The notes below the pieces were generated by a model. It was given only the letters and a program-made list of their open reading frames with translations, ran no database searches and had not been told where the DNA came from. A DNA stretch of 60,246 nt from Altibacter sp. (GTDB taxonomy: Bacteria; Bacteroidota; Bacteroidia; Flavobacteriales; Flavobacteriaceae), in assembly GCA_002696485.1 (NCBI GenBank), contig NZTP01000080.1:1-60246 (forward strand), read 5' to 3'. A program made the position numbers and the translations under genes. Below are positions 20,607-51,564 of the stretch, in pieces. Position 1 is the first letter of the stretch. Every line of letters starts with the position of its first letter.

Positions 20607-23165
20607 TTAGAAGAGAACTTGTACAGATAGATTGGGTGTAAAACCTAAGGAGACTTCCTTTACTTGATTGATCCGTGCGTTGCCGTTGGAATCGGTATCC
20701 AAGGCATAGCGAATGTTTAAAGTGTTTTTTTGATCTAGCAAGTTCAAGACAGCGAGATTGAGCTTTGCATCGACCCCTTCGGAAAGTTCCCAGAGATACT
20801 CGGCAGAAACATCGGTGCGATAATAATTCGAAAGACGTTCTGCATTGGGTGCTGCATAGAGAATCGTCTCGTCTCCATCAATGATCTCAATGGCATCTGT
20901 GGCCCGCGGGAAAGTATTTGGCTTCCCTGTTCGATAATGAAAGCCTACGGCAAATTTCAGCTTGTTTAATGTATACGAGCCTGCCGCTGTTAGCGAATGT
21001 CGAATGTCGAGGTTGTGGGGAAAAGGATTGGGATCGAGCGTTGCAAAAGTATAATCGTTTTTCATATACAAATAGGTGAACCAAGCACTAAAGCGATTTG
21101 TCTTTCTATTTAAAGTGAATTCGGCTCCTTTTGAGGCATAACTACCTTGTGCGCTTACAAACTGAAATTGATTTTGAAACCCTTGATTTGATGCTGTGAT
21201 GCCTTCTACCTTTTTGTAAAACCCTTCCAGATTAACAAACCACACATTCTTTTTATACAGCAATCCTACCGATAGTTGCTTGCTTTGTATAATAGGTGTT
21301 TCCGTCTCATCGGCCAAGACCCAGCGGCGCTTTTCTACACCTAGAAAATCACTGTCGAAATCGATACGCTGTGTGACGGCCTGGCTTTTCAATTCGCCCA
21401 AAGCTTCCAGCGCAAAGCCGCCTCCCAATTTCTGATGTATACTAAATCTGGGCTCCGGAAGAAATCGATCGAACTTTTCATAATAATTGGCGCGTAAACC
21501 ACCTCTTAGAATAGAATTCTTATTGGAGGAGGTATAGATGAGGTCTGAGAACAGCACATGGGACCGTAATACTTTCTTTTCGTAGATTCTGAAACGAGGT
21601 AAATTAACATCTTGTAGATTGGCGATCCCTATTTCCGAAAAATGATAACCTCCCTTTAGCTGAAGCACGTTATCTAAGCTATAGGCAGCATCTAGTTTTA
21701 AACCGGCATCGATCACTTCATTTTCCTGTTGTTGAACTTGGGTGGTAAAGATGTCGTTATTGGTTGCGTCTAAAAGATAATAACTACCATAGACCAGTGC
21801 CGTGGTCTCAAAGTAGGCTGTCCAATTTCGGGTCCAAGCAATACCTGCCAATACGCTTCTTTGTTCTAGATTACTCGTTTTGGAGTTAGCAGCAGATTGT
21901 AACGTTTCGGTAAAATCTAGCTTATTGTCTGCCGTGAATGTGGTGAACCGTATTTTATCCTTTTCTGAAAGGTCCCATAGAAATTTGGCACTGAGATCGT
22001 AGAAGCTAAATGTTTCGGACAAGGATAAGGTTCCCGGCGCAGAAGGATTCTCCTGATTGGTGATTTCAGTATCCTGGAAGATTCTTTCAGAATAGGTCTT
22101 ATAGACGGGAGTTTCAAAAAGGGAGTTAATAGAATGCCTTCCTGAGAGTTGCACAGAGCTCCTATAAGAAGTTGGAATGTCCAAGTAAAAGTTACCGTTG
22201 ATCAAGTTCACGCCTGCTCCGCCTTCAAATTTTGAGGTGATCTTGTCTTTGGAGCGCATGTCGATCAGCCCAGAAACACCTTCGCCATACCGGGAAGGCG
22301 TTCCATTTTTATACAGTGTCACCTTTTTTGTAAGATCGGGATTGAATGCAGAAATAAGTCCGAAGAAATGGCCGCTCTGATACATTTTTATATCCTCGTA
22401 CAGAATTAGATTCTCATCATGCGTTCCGCCGCGAATATTGATGTTGGAAATGGTCTCGTCTGCACTTTCAACACCGGGAAGTGCCTGTGCAATCTGTAAC
22501 ACGTCATTTTCTACCTGTCCGGGGAGCAGTCCAAAATTATCGGTGTTTAGAACGATGGCTCCCTGAGTTGTCTTTTGGATACCTTGGGTGAACAAGGTCT
22601 CTAAGGTGATGGCATTTAACGCTGTTACCGAAGGAACCAACAGAATGCTGTAACAATCCTCAGTAAGCCGATTAGTACTTATTTCGGTGGTCTCGTACCC
22701 CACATGAGAGATCTGAAGTGAGGTATTCGAGTATGTTTCGGCTACATAAAAAATACCTTCGTTGTTGGTAACTACGGCAAAACTTCCGTCTATGGTCTGT
22801 ATCGTGACGTCCGGGAGCGGTAGGCCTGTTTTGGCATCGTAGATCTTTCCGCAGTAGGAGGCTTCCTCATTTTTAAGCGTGGCAGTAATATAACGATCGT
22901 CGATGCGGGTAAAACGCAAGGGGGTGTTTTGGGTAAGATAGTCTAGGGTGTTTTCCAACGAGTTCCCCTTGGAAGGCGGAATGATAACAATTCCTGTAAC
23001 GTCTGAAGTAGCATAGGAAATACTCACATTGTAGGTTGTCTCTACCTGCTCGATCACCGCTGTCAAGGAAATTTTTTGTGTATCTTGGGAAAGCACTCGT
23101 GAACACCACAAAAGTGCTAGGACTGTAAGCAATGCAATGTTCTTTCTACTGACTGCCTTGTGCAT
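20607..23165 (-). CDS. TonB-dependent receptor with STN signalling domain
   Basis: An 852-residue outer-membrane receptor. In order: signal peptide (about 1-27), STN/secretin-like domain (about 30-95; ISLTAVIEQVETTYNVSISY), carboxypeptidase-regulatory-like beta-sandwich (about 104-180; GKIYDAKTGLPLPDVTI), plug (about 215-320; LPGVESADETISNINIRGGTHDENLILYE in part), then a barrel ending LSVQVLF with a terminal phenylalanine. STN domains talk to FecR anti-sigma factors, and fecR overlaps this gene by 20 bases. No SusD partner is present. The ligand is not evident; small secreted proteins follow downstream. Confidence 0.92.
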   Translation of the reverse strand: MHKAVSRKNIALLTVLALLWCSRVLSQDTQKISLTAVIEQVETTYNVSISYATSDVTGIVIIPPSKGNSLENTLDYLTQNTPLRFTRIDDRYITATLKNEEASYCGKIYDAKTGLPLPDVTIQTIDGSFAVVTNNEGIFYVAETYSNTSLQISHVGYETTEISTNRLTEDCYSILLVPSVTALNAITLETLFTQGIQKTTQGAIVLNTDNFGLLPGQVENDVLQIAQALPGVESADETISNINIRGGTHDENLILYEDIKMYQSGHFFGLISAFNPDLTKKVTLYKNGTPSRYGEGVSGLIDMRSKDKITSKFEGGAGVNLINGNFYLDIPTSYRSSVQLSGRHSINSLFETPVYKTYSERIFQDTEITNQENPSAPGTLSLSETFSFYDLSAKFLWDLSEKDKIRFTTFTADNKLDFTETLQSAANSKTSNLEQRSVLAGIAWTRNWTAYFETTALVYGSYYLLDATNNDIFTTQVQQQENEVIDAGLKLDAAYSLDNVLQLKGGYHFSEIGIANLQDVNLPRFRIYEKKVLRSHVLFSDLIYTSSNKNSILRGGLRANYYEKFDRFLPEPRFSIHQKLGGGFALEALGELKSQAVTQRIDFDSDFLGVEKRRWVLADETETPIIQSKQLSVGLLYKKNVWFVNLEGFYKKVEGITASNQGFQNQFQFVSAQGSYASKGAEFTLNRKTNRFSAWFTYLYMKNDYTFATLDPNPFPHNLDIRHSLTAAGSYTLNKLKFAVGFHYRTGKPNTFPRATDAIEIIDGDETILYAAPNAERLSNYYRTDVSAEYLWELSEGVDAKLNLAVLNLLDQKNTLNIRYALDTDSNGNARINQVKEVSLGFTPNLSVQVLF

Positions 23166-24054
23166 ATATTAGTACTTCCCCATTAGTTACCGTATACTGT
23201 AATTGTAGCGGTTCACACACCGATTTTAATGCAAGCTCCAGATCTGAGTGTGTAAAACTACCGGTGAACCGTTGTGACAGATCGATCTTCGCTGCATTCA
23301 CCTTTACGGGATAATACCGCTCAATTTCTTGTAAAATAACACCAACAGGCATGTTCTCAAAATGACTTTCGTCAGTTATCCAAACAGGTGCTGTTGCATT
23401 GGTAGGTGTATGTACTACTAACGTTCCGTTCTCGACTTTTAGTTTATTGCCTGCGGGCAATTTAATGAGTGTGTCGTTATAAGCAACACTCACTAGACCT
23501 TCATAACATTGTACATGAAATAACGAGTCGCGTGAGAAAACGTTGAACTGTGTTCCCAGTACAGTGACCACACCTTGCGAGGTATTCACAGAAAAGGTAC
23601 TGCCTTTAGAAACTTTAAAATAGGCTTCCCCACTAAGAGAGAGGGAGCGCTCACGCTTCCAATCACTCTTGTTATAGGAAAGTTGTGAATCGGCATTGAG
23701 TAGTACTTCCGAAGCATCGGGTAACACAATAGACTCTTTTTGGGCAATCCCTGTGCTTACAGTAGTATCCAGCGTATTTAGATATAGATAACCCGCGCAG
23801 ATCACGGCTACAACCGCTGCGATCTTTAAGAGTGTCTTTACAGGGTTGAGTTTTTTGACGGAAACTTGTGTATCTCGTTTTGAAAGAATAGCTTGATACG
23901 TGCCGGCACTATCAAACTGCGGTGCCTCAAAACCCAAAGCCGCTTCCGAGATCTCCACATAGGAAGCATATTCGGGAGAGGACCTAAGAATCTGGATCTC
24001 TTCTGCGCTGGCTTCGCCATTCAAATATTTATGTAATATGTAATTTTTATCCAT
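23146..24054 (-). CDS. FecR-family anti-sigma factor
   Basis: A 302-residue inner-membrane regulator. A short cytoplasmic N-terminal region (1-70, MDKNYILHKYLNGEASAEEI) binds the sigma factor, one membrane segment lies at about 72-90 (LLKIAAVVAVICAGYLYLNTL), a periplasmic FecR domain at about 98-195 (IVLPDASEVLLNADSQLSY, LSGEAYFKVSKG, VLGTQFNVFS), and a C-terminal DUF4974-like domain at about 235-300 (GVILQEIERYYPVKVNA) resembling an STN fold. It lies between its sigma factor and its receptor gene, overlapping the receptor by 20 bases. Confidence 0.93.
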   Translation of the reverse strand: MDKNYILHKYLNGEASAEEIQILRSSPEYASYVEISEAALGFEAPQFDSAGTYQAILSKRDTQVSVKKLNPVKTLLKIAAVVAVICAGYLYLNTLDTTVSTGIAQKESIVLPDASEVLLNADSQLSYNKSDWKRERSLSLSGEAYFKVSKGSTFSVNTSQGVVTVLGTQFNVFSRDSLFHVQCYEGLVSVAYNDTLIKLPAGNKLKVENGTLVVHTPTNATAPVWITDESHFENMPVGVILQEIERYYPVKVNAAKIDLSQRFTGSFTHSDLELALKSVCEPLQLQYTVTNGEVLIYAQGSQ

Positions 24055-24115
24055 GATTTGCGTATATCATACCTACTAATAGAACAGGGATCATCGCATT
24101 TACCCTACCCTTAAT

Positions 24116-24625
24116 TTAAATTTTCTCGATATCGTTTCGCAGGGCAGCCAGCGCCTGACTCATACGTTTTTCTACAGCTTTCACCGAAATATCCAAAATC
24201 TCGGCGATCTCTTTATACTTTTTGCCTTCAATTCGGTTCATTAAAAAAGCGGTGCGTTGTGCTTCGGTAAGCCCTGCGATGGCATTCTCTATTTTTTTGA
24301 GATATTGTTTTTCCTCCAATAGGAATTCCGGAGATTGATCATTAACCTTCATGGGCTCAAGAGCAGCATGCTTTAATACCACCTTTTTATGTGCTACCTC
24401 ATTGAGAAACGCATTGTTCGTAACGGTATATAAAAAGGATTTTGCTTTCGACAAAGGGACCTTGGCACAATTTTGCCATAATTTTATAAATGCATCCTGC
24501 ACAAGATCATCTGCCTGAGCCGTATTGCCACATTTAAAGTAAATGAAGTTCCAGATCTGTTTACTGTAATCTTCATATACTTTCGTAAAATTATGCTCCT
24601 TACAAACGTTTTCGTTTTCTTCCAT
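24116..24625 (-). CDS. ECF-type RNA polymerase sigma factor
   Basis: A 169-residue extracytoplasmic-function sigma factor. Region 2 covers about 15-75 (YSKQIWNFIYFKCGNTAQADDLVQDAFIKLWQN, in two parts) and region 4 about 115-169 (LTEAQRTAFLMNRIEGKKYKEIAEILDISVKAVEKRMSQAL, in two parts). I start at ATG 24625. A longer frame with TTG at 24646 is possible, but that TTG is the end of a perfect TATCTTTG promoter box. The sigma factor should be held by the FecR protein encoded 61 bases downstream and drive the TonB receptor gene. Confidence 0.93.
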   Translation of the reverse strand: MEENENVCKEHNFTKVYEDYSKQIWNFIYFKCGNTAQADDLVQDAFIKLWQNCAKVPLSKAKSFLYTVTNNAFLNEVAHKKVVLKHAALEPMKVNDQSPEFLLEEKQYLKKIENAIAGLTEAQRTAFLMNRIEGKKYKEIAEILDISVKAVEKRMSQALAALRNDIEKI

Positions 24626-24643
24626 ATAGGGTGAGGTCTTGCC

Positions 24644-24651
24644 CAAAGATA
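24644..24651 (-). promoter_or_regulatory. -7 promoter element for the ECF sigma gene
   Basis: The minus strand reads TATCTTTG, an exact match to TAnnTTTG, ending 18 bases before the ATG at 24625. It is a housekeeping-type promoter, which suggests the sigma factor is made constitutively at a base level and held by FecR. Confidence 0.65.
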
Positions 24652-48058: not shown

Positions 48059-48081
48059 ATCGATAAGGCTTTGTATATCAG

Positions 48082-48113
48082 TCCTCATGAGATGCTTCTC
48101 ATGAGGATTTTTT
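48082..48113 (+). terminator. Rho-independent terminator after mdh
   Basis: A perfect 10-base stem (48082-48091 with 48098-48107) and six-base loop followed by six Ts. It separates mdh from the copper-uptake locus. Confidence 0.92.
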
Positions 48114-48170
48114 GTATGATGCAAACGCATCGGTATGACGAATATCAGTTTTTAAAAGAAGGGAGCGACG

Positions 48171-48178
48171 TAATTTTG
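48171..48178 (+). promoter_or_regulatory. -7 promoter element for the copper-uptake locus
   Basis: TAATTTTG matches the TAnnTTTG box and ends only four bases before the ATG at 48183. With the normal spacing to the start point, the transcript would begin at or one to two bases from the ATG, so the first gene is probably leaderless. No -33 TTG is evident. Confidence 0.55.
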
Positions 48179-48182
48179 TCGC

Positions 48183-48554
48183 ATGAAATTGATAGTCCTA
48201 TTTACTGCACTCTTAATTCTTGCCAAGCCATTATGGCCTGTAGCAGAGTATGTAATGAATTATGATTTCATCGTGGAGCGCTTGTGCGAAAACCGTGGCA
48301 AACCTGAAATGGAATGTAACGGGAAGTGCTACCTTTCCAAACAACTTTCCAAAGAAGCGGGAGATTCACAAAACAATCCCTTCGAAAAATCATCTGCAAA
48401 AGACTTTCTACAACAATGGGTACGTTTTGAAGAACGTGCCATTTTCCAATTCCTTAACCTCGTTTCAAAAACAAAAAAAACAATACACTTTAGGGCAAAA
48501 CCTGTTCATTCCGGTCTGTTTGCCTTCGCACTCCCAAAACCCCCGGAAGTTTGA
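48183..48554 (+). CDS. Small three-cysteine membrane-anchored or secreted protein of the copper locus
   Basis: A 123-residue protein with a hydrophobic N-terminus (residues 2-24, MKLIVLFTALLILAKPLWPV), which could be an uncleaved anchor. Next to it lie three cysteines, C35, C45 and C49 (CENRGKPEMECNGKC), with CxxxC and nearby M43, fit for binding Cu(I) (inference). The tail (LSKQLSKEAG onward) is charged then aromatic. It is the first gene of a set ending in a TonB receptor and a Met/His-rich lipoprotein; 75 bases separate it from the receptor. I recall related proteins beside such receptors in other Flavobacteriia but cannot name a family. Confidence 0.7.
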   Translation: MKLIVLFTALLILAKPLWPVAEYVMNYDFIVERLCENRGKPEMECNGKCYLSKQLSKEAGDSQNNPFEKSSAKDFLQQWVRFEERAIFQFLNLVSKTKKTIHFRAKPVHSGLFAFALPKPPEV

Positions 48555-48629
48555 TATTTTTCATCTGCCTTTTCATGCATTGCATCGAAATAAGGTCTTA
48601 CTGAATAATCAATATCAAAATTTCAACTC

Positions 48630-50684
48630 ATGAACATTGCTAATAACAGGCCGCTCCCGCTATGGGATCCCGGCAAGATGTCTGGTGTCATCTTATGGGT
48701 GCTCGTGCTATGCGTGTTTTGTTCTAAATCACATGCACAGGAAATTTCTGTAGATAGTTTATACATACTTCCTGTCGATTTGAACGAAGTGGTCATTCTG
48801 GGAGCCAAAAAGCGCCTCACACATCAAAAACAACACAAACCGTTGTCTTCTTTAGACGAATATTTAGAGACCGCGCAAAAGATAAATCTCATTAAAAGGG
48901 GAGCCTATGCGTGGGAACCCTCCCTAAATAATATGACTTCAGAAAGGCTTGCTGTTACAATAGACGGGATGCAGATCTTTGGAGCTTGTACCGATAAAAT
49001 GGACCCTACCACCTCCTACGTGGATGTTTCTAATCTGGAAGAGGCACAAATTCAGTCGGGTCAACAAGGTGCTCTGTTTGGAAATACCATTGGTGGCGGT
49101 ATCAATATGAAATTGGGTCACAGTCGCTTCAAGGATAAGGGCTGGTACGGAAGCGTGGAAAATGCTTATGAAAGCAATAATAATTTACGCATTGTTGGTG
49201 CCGAGTTGAATTATTCCAAACCTGAATTTTACATCGACGGTGATATTATCTATCGCAAGGCTGACAATTATTTTGCTGGCGATGGTGAAGAGGTGGTATT
49301 TTCACAATTCGAAAAATACAATATTTCTTTGAACAGTGGAATTCAATTTTCCGAAGGGAAAAAGCTGGCAACCACGCTCCTTTTCGATCAAGCAAACGAT
49401 GTAGGGTATCCTGCTTTACCTATGGATGTATCTCTCGCGAGGGCTGTAATTACTTCGGTGAGTTGGCAGCAGGATTCTATTACAGGAAATTTTAAAGATT
49501 GGGAGACAAAAATCTATTACAACAACATAAAACATGTAATGGATGATACAAAACGCCCCAATGTGCCCATTCACATGGACATGCCGGGTTGGTCAACAAC
49601 TGCTGGAGTTTATTCTCAAATGGAGCGAATAAGCGGGAAACATGCACTTTTATTCAAGATCGACGGATTTTATAACAGGTCCTTGGCAGAAATGACTATG
49701 TACCCCAATGACCCAAATGAGAATGAGATGTTCATGCTTACGTGGCCCGATGTTCGTACAACCAATACCGGAATATATTTGGCAGACATCATAGCGCTTA
49801 AATCGTTTACGGTAGCGCTTTCTGGACGTCTTGGGCTTCAAAATACAAATGTGGCAGATGATTTTGGATTCAACAGTTTAAAGATCTTCTATCCTGAAAT
49901 GGAGCGTTCTAATACCCGTTTTCTGAAAAGTTTTTCGGTGACTTTTAGCAAGGATCTAAATGCTTTTAGCATGAGTTTGGGCGCAGCTTATGGCGAGCGA
50001 GCTCCTTCGGTTTCTGAAGGATTTGGGTTTTATTTGTTCAATAGTTTCGATGCCCATGATTATATAGGCAACCCAAACCTTACGAATGAACAATCGTTGG
50101 AGACGAACGCGAAAGTATCCTACAAAAAAGAAAAACTTTCTGTTTCGGCAGAAGTCAATTTCTTTCACATTCCTAATTATATAATCGGTGTTCTCGATTC
50201 AAACCTATCGCCTATGACTATTGGAGCTGCCGGTGTTAGGGTGTATACAAATTTGGAGTACGCACAGGTGTTCAATTCGGCTATGTCTGCGAAATATCAA
50301 TTGCTCAAGGGAATTCATTGGAGCGCCGGACTGTCGTGGCATCGTGGAACCGATAACGAGGGCGAAAACCTTCCGCTCATTAGTCCTTTGACATACAATT
50401 CGAGTCTCAGCTATACAGGGAAACGAACTTCCGCATCAATTTCCGTCTCAGGAAATGGAGTGCAGGAGAACTTTAGTGTCCGGTACGGCGAGGATCAAAC
50501 AAATGCCTATACGGTCGTGTCGGCTACATTAGGACGCCGCTTGGTGATCCACAAAAACGACCTCTACGCAAAAGCCGGGATCGAAAATATATTTGACACT
50601 TCGTATTCTACTTTTTCCGATTGGAACAACATTCCAAGAATGGGACGCAACATCTTTATGTCTCTTTCTTATTCAATTAATTAA
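48630..50684 (+). CDS. TonB-dependent receptor, OprC/NosA-like copper receptor
   Basis: A 684-residue outer-membrane receptor. After a signal region (about 1-36; a shorter start at ATG 48678 would begin it cleanly) come a TonB box region, plug (about 50-165; SLNNMTSERLAVTIDGMQIFG) and a 22-strand barrel ending FMSLSYSIN. The plug holds GACTDKMDPTTSY, i.e. CxxxM at C120/M124; the barrel holds KHVMDDTKRP, i.e. HxM at H302/M304. As I recall, OprC of Pseudomonas aeruginosa binds copper with CxxxM and HxM about 180 residues apart; here the distance is 182. There is no STN domain. A Met/His-rich lipoprotein follows. Confidence 0.9.
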   Translation: MNIANNRPLPLWDPGKMSGVILWVLVLCVFCSKSHAQEISVDSLYILPVDLNEVVILGAKKRLTHQKQHKPLSSLDEYLETAQKINLIKRGAYAWEPSLNNMTSERLAVTIDGMQIFGACTDKMDPTTSYVDVSNLEEAQIQSGQQGALFGNTIGGGINMKLGHSRFKDKGWYGSVENAYESNNNLRIVGAELNYSKPEFYIDGDIIYRKADNYFAGDGEEVVFSQFEKYNISLNSGIQFSEGKKLATTLLFDQANDVGYPALPMDVSLARAVITSVSWQQDSITGNFKDWETKIYYNNIKHVMDDTKRPNVPIHMDMPGWSTTAGVYSQMERISGKHALLFKIDGFYNRSLAEMTMYPNDPNENEMFMLTWPDVRTTNTGIYLADIIALKSFTVALSGRLGLQNTNVADDFGFNSLKIFYPEMERSNTRFLKSFSVTFSKDLNAFSMSLGAAYGERAPSVSEGFGFYLFNSFDAHDYIGNPNLTNEQSLETNAKVSYKKEKLSVSAEVNFFHIPNYIIGVLDSNLSPMTIGAAGVRVYTNLEYAQVFNSAMSAKYQLLKGIHWSAGLSWHRGTDNEGENLPLISPLTYNSSLSYTGKRTSASISVSGNGVQENFSVRYGEDQTNAYTVVSATLGRRLVIHKNDLYAKAGIENIFDTSYSTFSDWNNIPRMGRNIFMSLSYSIN

Positions 50685-50706
50685 CAACAACTTTAAAACA
50701 TAAAAA

Positions 50707-51564
50707 ATGAAAACTATAAAAAACATATTATTTCTACTGCTTGCAATAATGGCAGTAACCTCTTGTTCAAAAGACGATACCGAAATCATTGAAGAGACCG
50801 TTGATCCCATGGCAACCTATAATCTGATCAAAGCATTGGATTATACAGATCATGTGATAGAGATCTATTCTGAAAAGGAAGCACTCACCGTGGGCTACAA
50901 TCCAATGTTCATTCGAATAAAGGATAAAATTGCTGGAAGCTATATCTCAAACCCGAACCTTTCTTGGAAACCCATGATGCACATGGAAACGATGATGCAT
51001 TCGGCTCCTGCTTCAGAAATATCCGGAAGCGCGTATCCTACGGTTTTTTCAGGCTATATTATTTTTCAAATGCCCGGAAATGCTACCGAGTATTGGGACA
51101 TTACCTTAAATTATACTGTGGCAGGTGTCGATATGACCAAAACAGTACGTATTGATGTTGTAATGCCTTCCGACGGTCTGAAGAAATCACAGGTATTTAT
51201 GGGAAGCGACGATGTGCGATATATTTTGGCGTATGTGGATCCAAAAATGCCTCAAGTGACGGTCAATGACTTTACGGCTGTTCTATATAAAATGGAAGAC
51301 ATGTTGACTTTTAGCGTGGTCGAAAATTATAAAATTGCGGTAGACCCAAGGATGCCGGGTATGGGGAATCACTCTTCACCCAACAATCAGGATCTTACAT
51401 ATATGGATGCGGACAAGATGTATCACGGTAAACTTTCCTTAACCATGACGGGATACTGGAGGATTAATCTTAAACTCATGAATGAGGCGGGAGATGTCTT
51501 AAAAGGAGAAGATGTTACAGATACCAACACCGAAAGTAGTTTGTATTTTGAATTGGAATTATAA
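50707..51564 (+). CDS. Lipoprotein with two YtkA-like copper-binding domains
   Basis: A 285-residue lipoprotein (lipobox TSC, C20) followed by SKDDTEII, an acidic start typical of surface-exported Bacteroidota lipoproteins. The mature part shows two similar domains. The first (about 45-150) has WKPMMHMETMMHSAP (87-101) before GYIIFQMPGNATEYWDI; the second (about 165-285) has PRMPGMGNHSSPN (214-226) before GKLSLTMTGYWRINL. MxM/MxH clusters followed by a GK/GY-strand and a Trp are the plan of YtkA/FixH-type copper proteins. It starts 22 bases after the receptor gene and has its own terminator. Confidence 0.85.
   Translation: MKTIKNILFLLLAIMAVTSCSKDDTEIIEETVDPMATYNLIKALDYTDHVIEIYSEKEALTVGYNPMFIRIKDKIAGSYISNPNLSWKPMMHMETMMHSAPASEISGSAYPTVFSGYIIFQMPGNATEYWDITLNYTVAGVDMTKTVRIDVVMPSDGLKKSQVFMGSDDVRYILAYVDPKMPQVTVNDFTAVLYKMEDMLTFSVVENYKIAVDPRMPGMGNHSSPNNQDLTYMDADKMYHGKLSLTMTGYWRINLKLMNEAGDVLKGEDVTDTNTESSLYFELEL

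Follow-up and report, generated by a model that had tools for sequence, protein, structure and literature searches.

What does a small, cysteine-bearing protein do as the first gene of a putative copper-uptake locus? This question is raised by a stretch of 60,246 nucleotides (nt) of Altibacter sp. DNA (contig NZTP01000080.1; the whole stretch is called the window below), in which a small gene, the gene of a TonB-dependent receptor resembling OprC of Pseudomonas aeruginosa and a lipoprotein gene follow each other on one strand (Table 1). An earlier reading of the letters alone, named here the sequence-only reading, had this order and the three-Cys protein of 123 residues right, and it had made the small protein the recipient of copper inside the cell. 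A regulatory leader is favoured here instead. The preferred reading, to which a probability of about 0.68 is given, is that of a copper importer which is induced at low oxygen and whose synthesis is controlled by a nascent chain that senses copper, the arrest and the copper response being drawn from the sequence and from analogy with CruR of Bordetella pertussis.

In the proposed mechanism, a CRP/FNR-family protein would, under oxygen shortage, act at the palindrome before the small gene and switch on a leaderless transcript, as suggested by the site itself. The first gene would then give a small exported or membrane-inserted leader chain. As long as copper is scarce, the ribosome would halt at the C-terminal Pro-Pro, cover the 5' arm of a predicted stem that hides the next start codon and keep this stem open, whereby receptor and lipoprotein would be made. 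Copper on the three Cys of the nascent chain would relieve the halt, the ribosome would leave, the stem would close and import would stop. The lipoprotein would bind copper by Met and His ligands and hand it over to the receptor, through which the metal would reach the periplasm and its copper enzymes, among them nitrous oxide (N2O) reductase and cbb3 oxidase. Gene linkage, ligands, Pro-Pro, its spacing, the pairing and the promoter palindrome are observed in the sequence, while the arrest and the sense in which copper acts are inferred from the analogy with CruR. Copper is taken to switch the operon off since the operon encodes an importer and since this is how CruR behaves.

The small leader and the RNA behind it

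The family survey covers 199 genomes from the family of the window genome, and 114 of them have matches to the small protein (150 matches, own count); so do 99 of 247 genomes taken from the whole phylum. The set of 141 distinct leaders used below comprises 140 of the 150 matches and one found in locus L118, ten others, mostly weak or at contig ends, having been left out. C35, C45, G47, C49, L51, P120 and P121 are the only invariant columns in 67 aligned leaders. The motif C-x8/9-C-x-G-x-C is present in all 141, while Pro-Pro stands near the end in 140, followed by 2-14 residues and most often in the contexts FHPP (32) and TPPP (22). Pro-Pro follows the third Cys at a nearly fixed distance (68.4 residues, standard deviation (sd) 2.2). 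The mean majority fraction reaches 1.0 at Pro-Pro and 0.70 in the surroundings of the Cys, but only 0.26 between them (residues 54-115). A search with residues 1-60 alone, which is not fully independent since the full-length protein had served to select the loci, found 140 leaders, 139 of them with Pro-Pro in the last 16 residues; among other genes, 9 of 959 have Pro-Pro there. Membership of the leader in DUF2946 (Pfam PF11162) was rejected, as no match was given by the 67 members at an expectation value (E) up to 1 or by the 199 genomes, and an assignment in NCBIfam was likewise dropped for want of a consistent family.

The genes found after the 141 leaders are of several unrelated kinds: a TonB receptor in 59 cases, the lipoprotein in 28, MbnP in 27, a Phenol_MetA_deg-type gene in 16 (assigned by Pfam of one example) and, more rarely, a small lipoprotein (4), another leader (2), an unassigned gene (4) or none (1). 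An OprC-like receptor, the lipoprotein or MbnP comes next in 99 of the 141. CxxxM is carried by 44 of the 59 receptors, 11 being of the window's type and 25 and 8 of two further types, tested examples of which have TIGR01778 as best family with 260 bits each. The remaining 15 receptors have no CxxxM and are followed by PepSY_TM in 14 cases; one of them, when tested, scores best as siderophore-type. All 28 lipoprotein-first operons continue with a window-type receptor, and 26 of the 27 MbnP genes with a MauG-type MbnH (Pfam on one example). Because of these unrelated downstream sets and of the parts that are conserved (the hydrophobic N-terminus, the three Cys and Pro-Pro by the stop), a regulatory leader fits better than an inner acceptor. 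The role of internal copper acceptor was given up as the main one because invariance is confined to the Cys motif, one Gly, one Leu and the Pro-Pro close to the end. A same-strand gene lies upstream of the leader in 82 of 141 cases (median gap 100), so that the leader is not established as the first gene of the transcript in every case.

Further gene arrangements were observed around leaders. At loci L131, L142-L147 and L150, the leader is followed by MbnP, MauG-type MbnH and C11 genes with no receptor, C11 being a protein of about 332 residues with CDxCGCGSSGGSMGYGT near its start and no Pfam match in one example. A leader, a TonB receptor without CxxxM and PepSY_TM are found at L148:5323-8919 and at 14 similar loci, an arrangement that resembles cruR-crtA-PepSY_TM of Bordetella. 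A recurrent small lipoprotein of about 144 residues with an HDExMPKM-like motif also stands near leaders (L145:5019-5456, L148:8925-9344, L151:6818-7252), and Pfam gives weak, unconvincing matches for the one example submitted.

The pairing between the end of the leader gene and the next start was then evaluated in silico for 131 leaders, with the 27 nt after the Pro-Pro codons on one side and the 30 nt around the next start codon on the other. Matched arms gave -7.67 kcal/mol against -4.61 kcal/mol for mismatched ones (2000 permutations, sd 0.171, best -5.19), and the preference was found in the receptor (56), lipoprotein (26) and MbnP (27) classes, each with p below 4e-5. Once the 5' arm was shifted by -60, -30, +12 or +24 nt, the advantage was at most 0.44 kcal/mol; a shift of -12 nt retained most of it. 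In 69 loci from a scan of named genomes (at least 583 lipoprotein relatives, the best 80 taken, which are the closest ones and biased to the window's gene order), pairing was -8.48 versus -5.90 mismatched, and 19 of the 69 matched pairs rank among the best 5% of their row. Minimum free energy folds displayed 8.26 inter-arm pairs for 99 leader gaps, compared with 3.29 for gap-shuffled copies and 4.65 for 200 of 283 control gaps, and the pairing advantage of control gene pairs is not tied to that position. No intrinsic terminator was called in the window's leader-receptor gap by the terminator scan. Leader gaps also fold better than full shuffles, with class means of z from -1.5 to -3.6; this excess was discarded as evidence, since no separation from other gaps was left once gap-shuffled copies served as the reference.

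The strongest of the competing explanations is regulation in the manner of CruR, whereby Rho-dependent termination would occur in the gap once the ribosome leaves and the stem would be incidental. CruR acts in this way before a TonB receptor (PubMed Central (PMC) article PMC9426467). Such a mechanism is nonetheless unlikely here: the pairing depends on position and goes with the region of the next start, and the gaps are short, with medians of 87 nt before receptor genes and 117.5 nt before lipoprotein genes versus 162 nt in CruR. A somewhat less probable alternative is that the small protein acts in trans and, in the membrane or periplasm, accepts or chaperones the copper imported by the receptor. 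This is the recipient role of the sequence-only reading shifted to the periplasm, and it would suit the protein's three invariant Cys in C-x9-C-x-G-x-C, its hydrophobic N-terminus and its place beside a copper receptor. Against this role, residues 54-115 are poorly conserved (0.26) while the near-terminal Pro-Pro is invariant, the RNA pairing begins at the Pro-Pro codons, and the leader also precedes MbnP-MbnH genes that have no receptor. The protein may also be trans acceptor and leader at once. For the nascent chain of the preferred reading, the 68-residue spacing (45 in CruR and CutF) leads to the guess that the Cys motif of a halted chain stands well outside the ribosome, perhaps beyond the membrane.

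Table 1. Coordinates of the features of the three-gene locus in the window.
Feature	Position	Strand	Remarks
Upstream terminator	48080-48109		terminator scan
Palindrome TGACGAATATCA	48136-48147	+	TGAY-N4-RTCA; candidate CRP/FNR-family activator site; centre 41.5 bases before start codon
Promoter box TAATTTTG	48171-48178	+	Bacteroidota-type -7 box; ends 4 nt before ATG
Small gene (leader)	48183-48554	+	open reading frame (ORF), 123 residues, three Cys; N-terminus hydrophobic; C35 and C45-x-G-x-C49; middle variable; Pro120-Pro121, then two residues to the end
Pro-Pro codons CCC CCG	48540-48545	+	proposed arrest site; invariant in 67 aligned members
Predicted stem	48545-48624	+	48545-48558 pairs with 48611-48624, just before receptor ATG at 48630
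OprC-like TonB-dependent receptor gene	48630-50684	+	ORF, 684 residues; ligands C120, M124, H302, M304
Lipoprotein gene	50707-51564	+	ORF, 285 residues; Cys20 then S-K-D-D; CrdA/YtkA-like second domain with DPRMPGMGNHSSPNN
Downstream terminator-like element	51603-51591	-	only element called 3' of the set

Promoter site and low-oxygen genes

The consensus of Bacteroidota promoters is TAnnTTTG. For 53 of the 141 leaders, versus 1.2 in shuffles, a box of this form precedes an in-frame start by 2-9 nt, and in the window it stands so close to the ATG that the mRNA probably starts at or beside this codon. The description of the small gene as leaderless is consequently plausible when it is read as a statement on the mRNA, given the distance of 4 nt between TAATTTTG and the ATG.

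Upstream of leaders, the TGAY-N4-RTCA palindrome occurs 50 times (1.56 in shuffles), with 35 occurrences centred 41 or 42 nt before the start. At 38-46 nt before the start, it is found in 40 of 72 operons beginning with an OprC-like receptor or the lipoprotein and in none of the 69 others. By class, it was counted in 7 of 11 operons of the window type, in 14 of 20 and 0 of 8 for the two lipoprotein-first types, and in 19 of 25 and 0 of 8 for the two further CxxxM types; the receptor-PepSY (0/15), MbnP (0/27) and remaining kinds (0/27) are devoid of it. Among the named loci, 48 of 77 have the palindrome.

The full site, consisting of palindrome, 23 nt and box, is present at nine places in the window genome and at none in a reversed-pattern control. 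Seven of the nine are on one contig, six of these within 18 kb of nosZ, and the genes behind the sites of this contig include nadA, a cytochrome c gene that precedes nosZ, hemN at a distance of some 35 kb from nosZ, and genes of Usp type, one of which was called by Pfam and the others by their first residues; ccoN is on the same contig. The ninth full site precedes a flavin adenine dinucleotide (FAD) oxidoreductase gene on another contig. CRP/FNR-family control of the operon is inferred from the palindrome near -41.5 that it has in common with these low-oxygen genes. HTH_Crp_2 has two matches in the window genome, one of them with an internal stop codon. The other is a receiver-cNMP-HTH_Crp protein encoded beside a PAS histidine kinase, in the low-oxygen gene island of the nosZ contig (G000 C68:148640-149698, L274:9141-10199); it is a candidate regulator and possibly offers a two-component route to the CRP/FNR-type sites.

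Receptor, lipoprotein and their linkage

At E 0.01, six sequences of the PDB match the receptor and all are OprC (best 8.6e-14). In the alignment to PDB 6fok, for which the offset between the two proteins was derived by hand, C120/M124 and H302/M304 match C143/M147 and H323/M325, the copper ligands of OprC (PMC8610252), which bears out the OprC-like ligand set claimed from the sequence. These four residues are invariant in 42 receptors with identities to the window receptor down to 23%; the alignment comprises 42 of 51 receptor ORFs, without seven others and the two fragments of an interrupted one. In one relative (G130, L103:4718-6718), the receptor gene was seen to be broken by a stop codon. 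Pfam recognises the Plug domain only. The predicted model of the receptor has a mean predicted local distance difference test score (pLDDT) of 77.7, and ranks 1-27 of a fold search of the PDB with it are all OprC chains, 6fok being the best (E 1.4e-35, template modelling score (TM) 0.81 by target). By sequence and by model, the receptor is OprC-like.

The lipoprotein has its lipobox Cys at position 20, followed by S-K-D-D, and acidic residues after this Cys are common in its relatives. Such residues are a surface-export signal of Bacteroidota lipoproteins, and the protein is probably located on the cell surface. M216, M219, H222 and M247 are among the residues invariant in 40 lipoproteins, to which M91, M93, H98, M122, M196 and M199 are added in 75 closer ones. 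The two Met/His-rich domains described in the sequence-only reading are read as beta-sandwich domains; the YtkA label extends to the second half only (PF13115, 20.3 bits), under the gathering score of 25.9 bits, which is exceeded by two relatives tested (29.1 and 36.8 bits). In an AlphaFold model (mean pLDDT 90.2), everything beyond the signal helix is beta structure. Foldseek matches the model chiefly to immunoglobulin-like or other beta-sandwich proteins with low TM, and also to CrdA of Helicobacter pylori in its apo form (TM 0.65 by target) and with silver bound (0.71). CrdA is also the sole PDB sequence match, an insignificant one (E 0.26). The likening of receptor and lipoprotein to SusC and SusD holds as a functional comparison and not as kinship, since the lipoprotein has no match to the SusD family in Pfam up to E 1.

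The question of whether receptor and lipoprotein carry another cargo, for instance a copper-loaded chalkophore or zinc, is raised by a score of 108 bits against the 472-bit equivalog cut-off of TIGR01778, which none of the 199 family genomes exceeds, by ZnuD as the best non-OprC fold match and by MbnP and MauG-type genes, known also from methanobactin clusters (PMC9426467), in the fetched flanks of 9 of 39 lipoprotein loci. With the four OprC copper ligands invariant in 42 receptors and Met-rich ligands favouring copper, a different cargo is improbable.

Linkage in relatives had been set beforehand as the test that could refute the locus. The lipoprotein was found in 40 of the 199 family genomes (41 matches, the last of which, a partial one with 25% identity, was left out), and receptor and small gene adjoin it in all 40 loci, i.e. 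39 fetched ones and the window, in the order small-receptor-lipoprotein in 11 and small-lipoprotein-receptor in 29. In the best 80 named loci, the receptor is beside the lipoprotein in 80 and the small gene in 77, with the window's order in 76 and the other order in 1; among the three where the small gene was not found, two are cut near a contig end. The nearest named relative of the lipoprotein is from an Altibacter metagenome-assembled genome (72% identity). The refuting outcome, genes lying apart in relatives, did not occur, and the results support a copper-uptake locus in which a receptor of OprC type is linked to a lipoprotein of copper-binding type.

A tie to copper enzymes is also seen around the lipoprotein. 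At least two of five nos-type gene clusters are in the fetched flanks of 16 of the 39 loci, and ccoG-type genes, called by sequence appearance, in those of 4. With a threshold of at least 500 bits, NosZ was counted by hand in 89 of 199 genomes, namely in 32 of the 40 with the lipoprotein versus 57 of the 159 others (p 6.6e-7, kinship between genomes ignored).

In the window genome (94 contigs, flavobacterial type), the set lies between mdh and secDF, genes named from the appearance of their translations. The upstream one of the two flanking terminators described earlier was confirmed by the terminator scan. The downstream one is weaker, only an element on the opposite strand being called, and it is part of the mdh-secDF junction, because a near-identical element precedes secDF in a genus-mate (G101, L152) where none of the three genes was found and only 136 bp separate mdh from the neighbouring secDF. 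Insertion of the set into the window genome was considered and rejected: a related genome (L092) shares its placement, directly before secDF and downstream of mdh, and loss in the genus-mate is therefore the simpler account. A separate TonB receptor locus, with FecR-type and sigma-factor-type genes upstream and signal-regulated by the appearance of its translations, lies at 20607-24646 of the window.

Least probable of all is an ordinary copper-uptake operon whose CutF-like leader, already in list D of the CutF authors, would stall longer with copper and turn the operon on: CutF indeed has CxxxC, a Pro-rich end and a downstream stem-loop, and many Bacteroidota are in list D (PMC9973294), but a copper-induced importer would be counter-productive, CutF guarding a detoxifying oxidase.

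Several results weigh against the copper-gated importer preferred here. One leader (L192) has no Pro-Pro, RAPP occurs in 0 of 140 and the window leader has K-P-P, and the third named locus without the small gene (L351), which is not cut near a contig end, consists of receptor and lipoprotein with no leader found; moreover, the Pro-rich end of CutF alone gave no arrest in a LepB assay (PMC9973294). Pairing is weak in the Phenol_MetA_deg-type class (n = 15, p 0.018), only 54 of 131 matched pairs are in the top 5% of their row, unrelated neighbour genes also pair better than mismatched ones (advantage -1.22 vs -2.79, p 4e-5), and the folding energy of gaps relative to gap-shuffled copies shows no difference between leader and control gaps (p 0.13). 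A start-adjacent TAnnTTTG box is missing from 88 of 141 leaders, and the palindrome as written from 32 of the 72 OprC-like operons; one receptor type and one lipoprotein type, with 8 operons each, lack it altogether. With 15 of 59 leader-next receptors devoid of CxxxM, not all receptors fronted by a leader are OprC-like. In 8 of the 40 lipoprotein genomes, NosZ is missing or scores under the threshold, and the genus-mate G101 has NosZ and no match to leader or lipoprotein.

The leaders may, with even odds, form a large Bacteroidota family of copper-sensing arrest peptides, unrelated by profile to DUF2946 and serving several copper-acquisition sets (an OprC-like receptor alone or with the lipoprotein, a receptor plus PepSY_TM, and MbnP/MbnH), in which Pro-Pro arrest would open a start-hiding stem and the CRP/FNR-type site would add oxygen sensing only at OprC-like operons, import thereby requiring both low oxygen and low copper. 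If this is true, many 'hypothetical proteins' would be brought under one testable mechanism.

Comparison with known systems

Copper uptake and sensing in Bacteroidota are little described in the literature searched. Within openly licensed PMC papers, no description of the three-gene set or of the leader family was found, in line with the earlier remark that no description of it as a system was known, and nothing on MbnP with Bacteroidetes. One published receptor of this kind is the TonB-dependent transporter BZARG_1494 of Bizionia argentinensis, a flavobacterial OprC-like protein with CxxxM-HxM for which copper uptake has been proposed; in the parts of that article used here, leader and lipoprotein were not found in its description, and YtkA has no occurrence in the main text (PMC11213822). 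Receptor-lipoprotein pairs such as BtuB-BtuG and others of Bacteroidota likewise place a TonB receptor beside a probably surface-located lipoprotein, with vitamin B12 or iron as cargo. CrdA of H. pylori (PDB 9ll2, 9ll4) is a small beta-sandwich and a copper-resistance determinant with a fold match to one lipoprotein domain; unlike the lipoprotein, which has two domains and a receptor partner, it counts about 110 residues and is annotated for copper resistance.

The small protein itself is most comparable to two leaders of known function. CutF of Rhodobacter capsulatus has in common with it a Cys motif (CxxxC in CutF), a Pro-rich end and a downstream stem-loop hiding the next start, and differs from it in that copper turns on a detoxifying oxidase, whereas importers are fronted here; the leader is moreover without a Pfam DUF2946 match and has a spacing of 68 rather than 45 (PMC9973294). 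Bacteroidota account for 40% of list D of the CutF authors when normalised and for 19% otherwise, the leader family may already be within that list, and the existence of such leaders in Bacteroidota is not new as such (PMC9973294). In CruR-bfrG(crtA)-bp2921 of B. pertussis, a small Cys-bearing first gene with a Pro-Pro end precedes a TonB receptor, the spacing from Cys motif to end is nearly fixed, and the partners of CruR homologues (OprC-type receptors, PepSY_TM and MbnPH-like genes) are those found here (PMC9426467). The leader departs from CruR by having no DUF2946 similarity, xPP instead of RAPP, a spacing of 68 and not 45, start-region pairing instead of or besides Rho, and, in the window, a lipoprotein as third member. 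A 2025 survey of RAPP/RGPP leaders (PMC12992588) reports those before TonB receptors throughout Gram-negatives and finds those of copper-factor genes missing in Bacteroidota, a gap which, if the preferred reading is true, would be filled by a leader family with a different Pro-Pro end.

As for the importer, OprC and NosA of P. stutzeri have the same receptor fold, the CxxxM-HxM ligands and a tie to low oxygen, and NosA has in addition a link to N2O reductase; OprC is in an operon with a FoxB-like membrane protein, the lipoprotein and leader taking part here instead (PMC8610252). The nos genes named in the cited part of PMC7477175 are nosZ-L-D-F-Y only. Should the preferred reading be true, the leader family would provide a handle on the copper supply to nitrous oxide reductase in marine bacteria.

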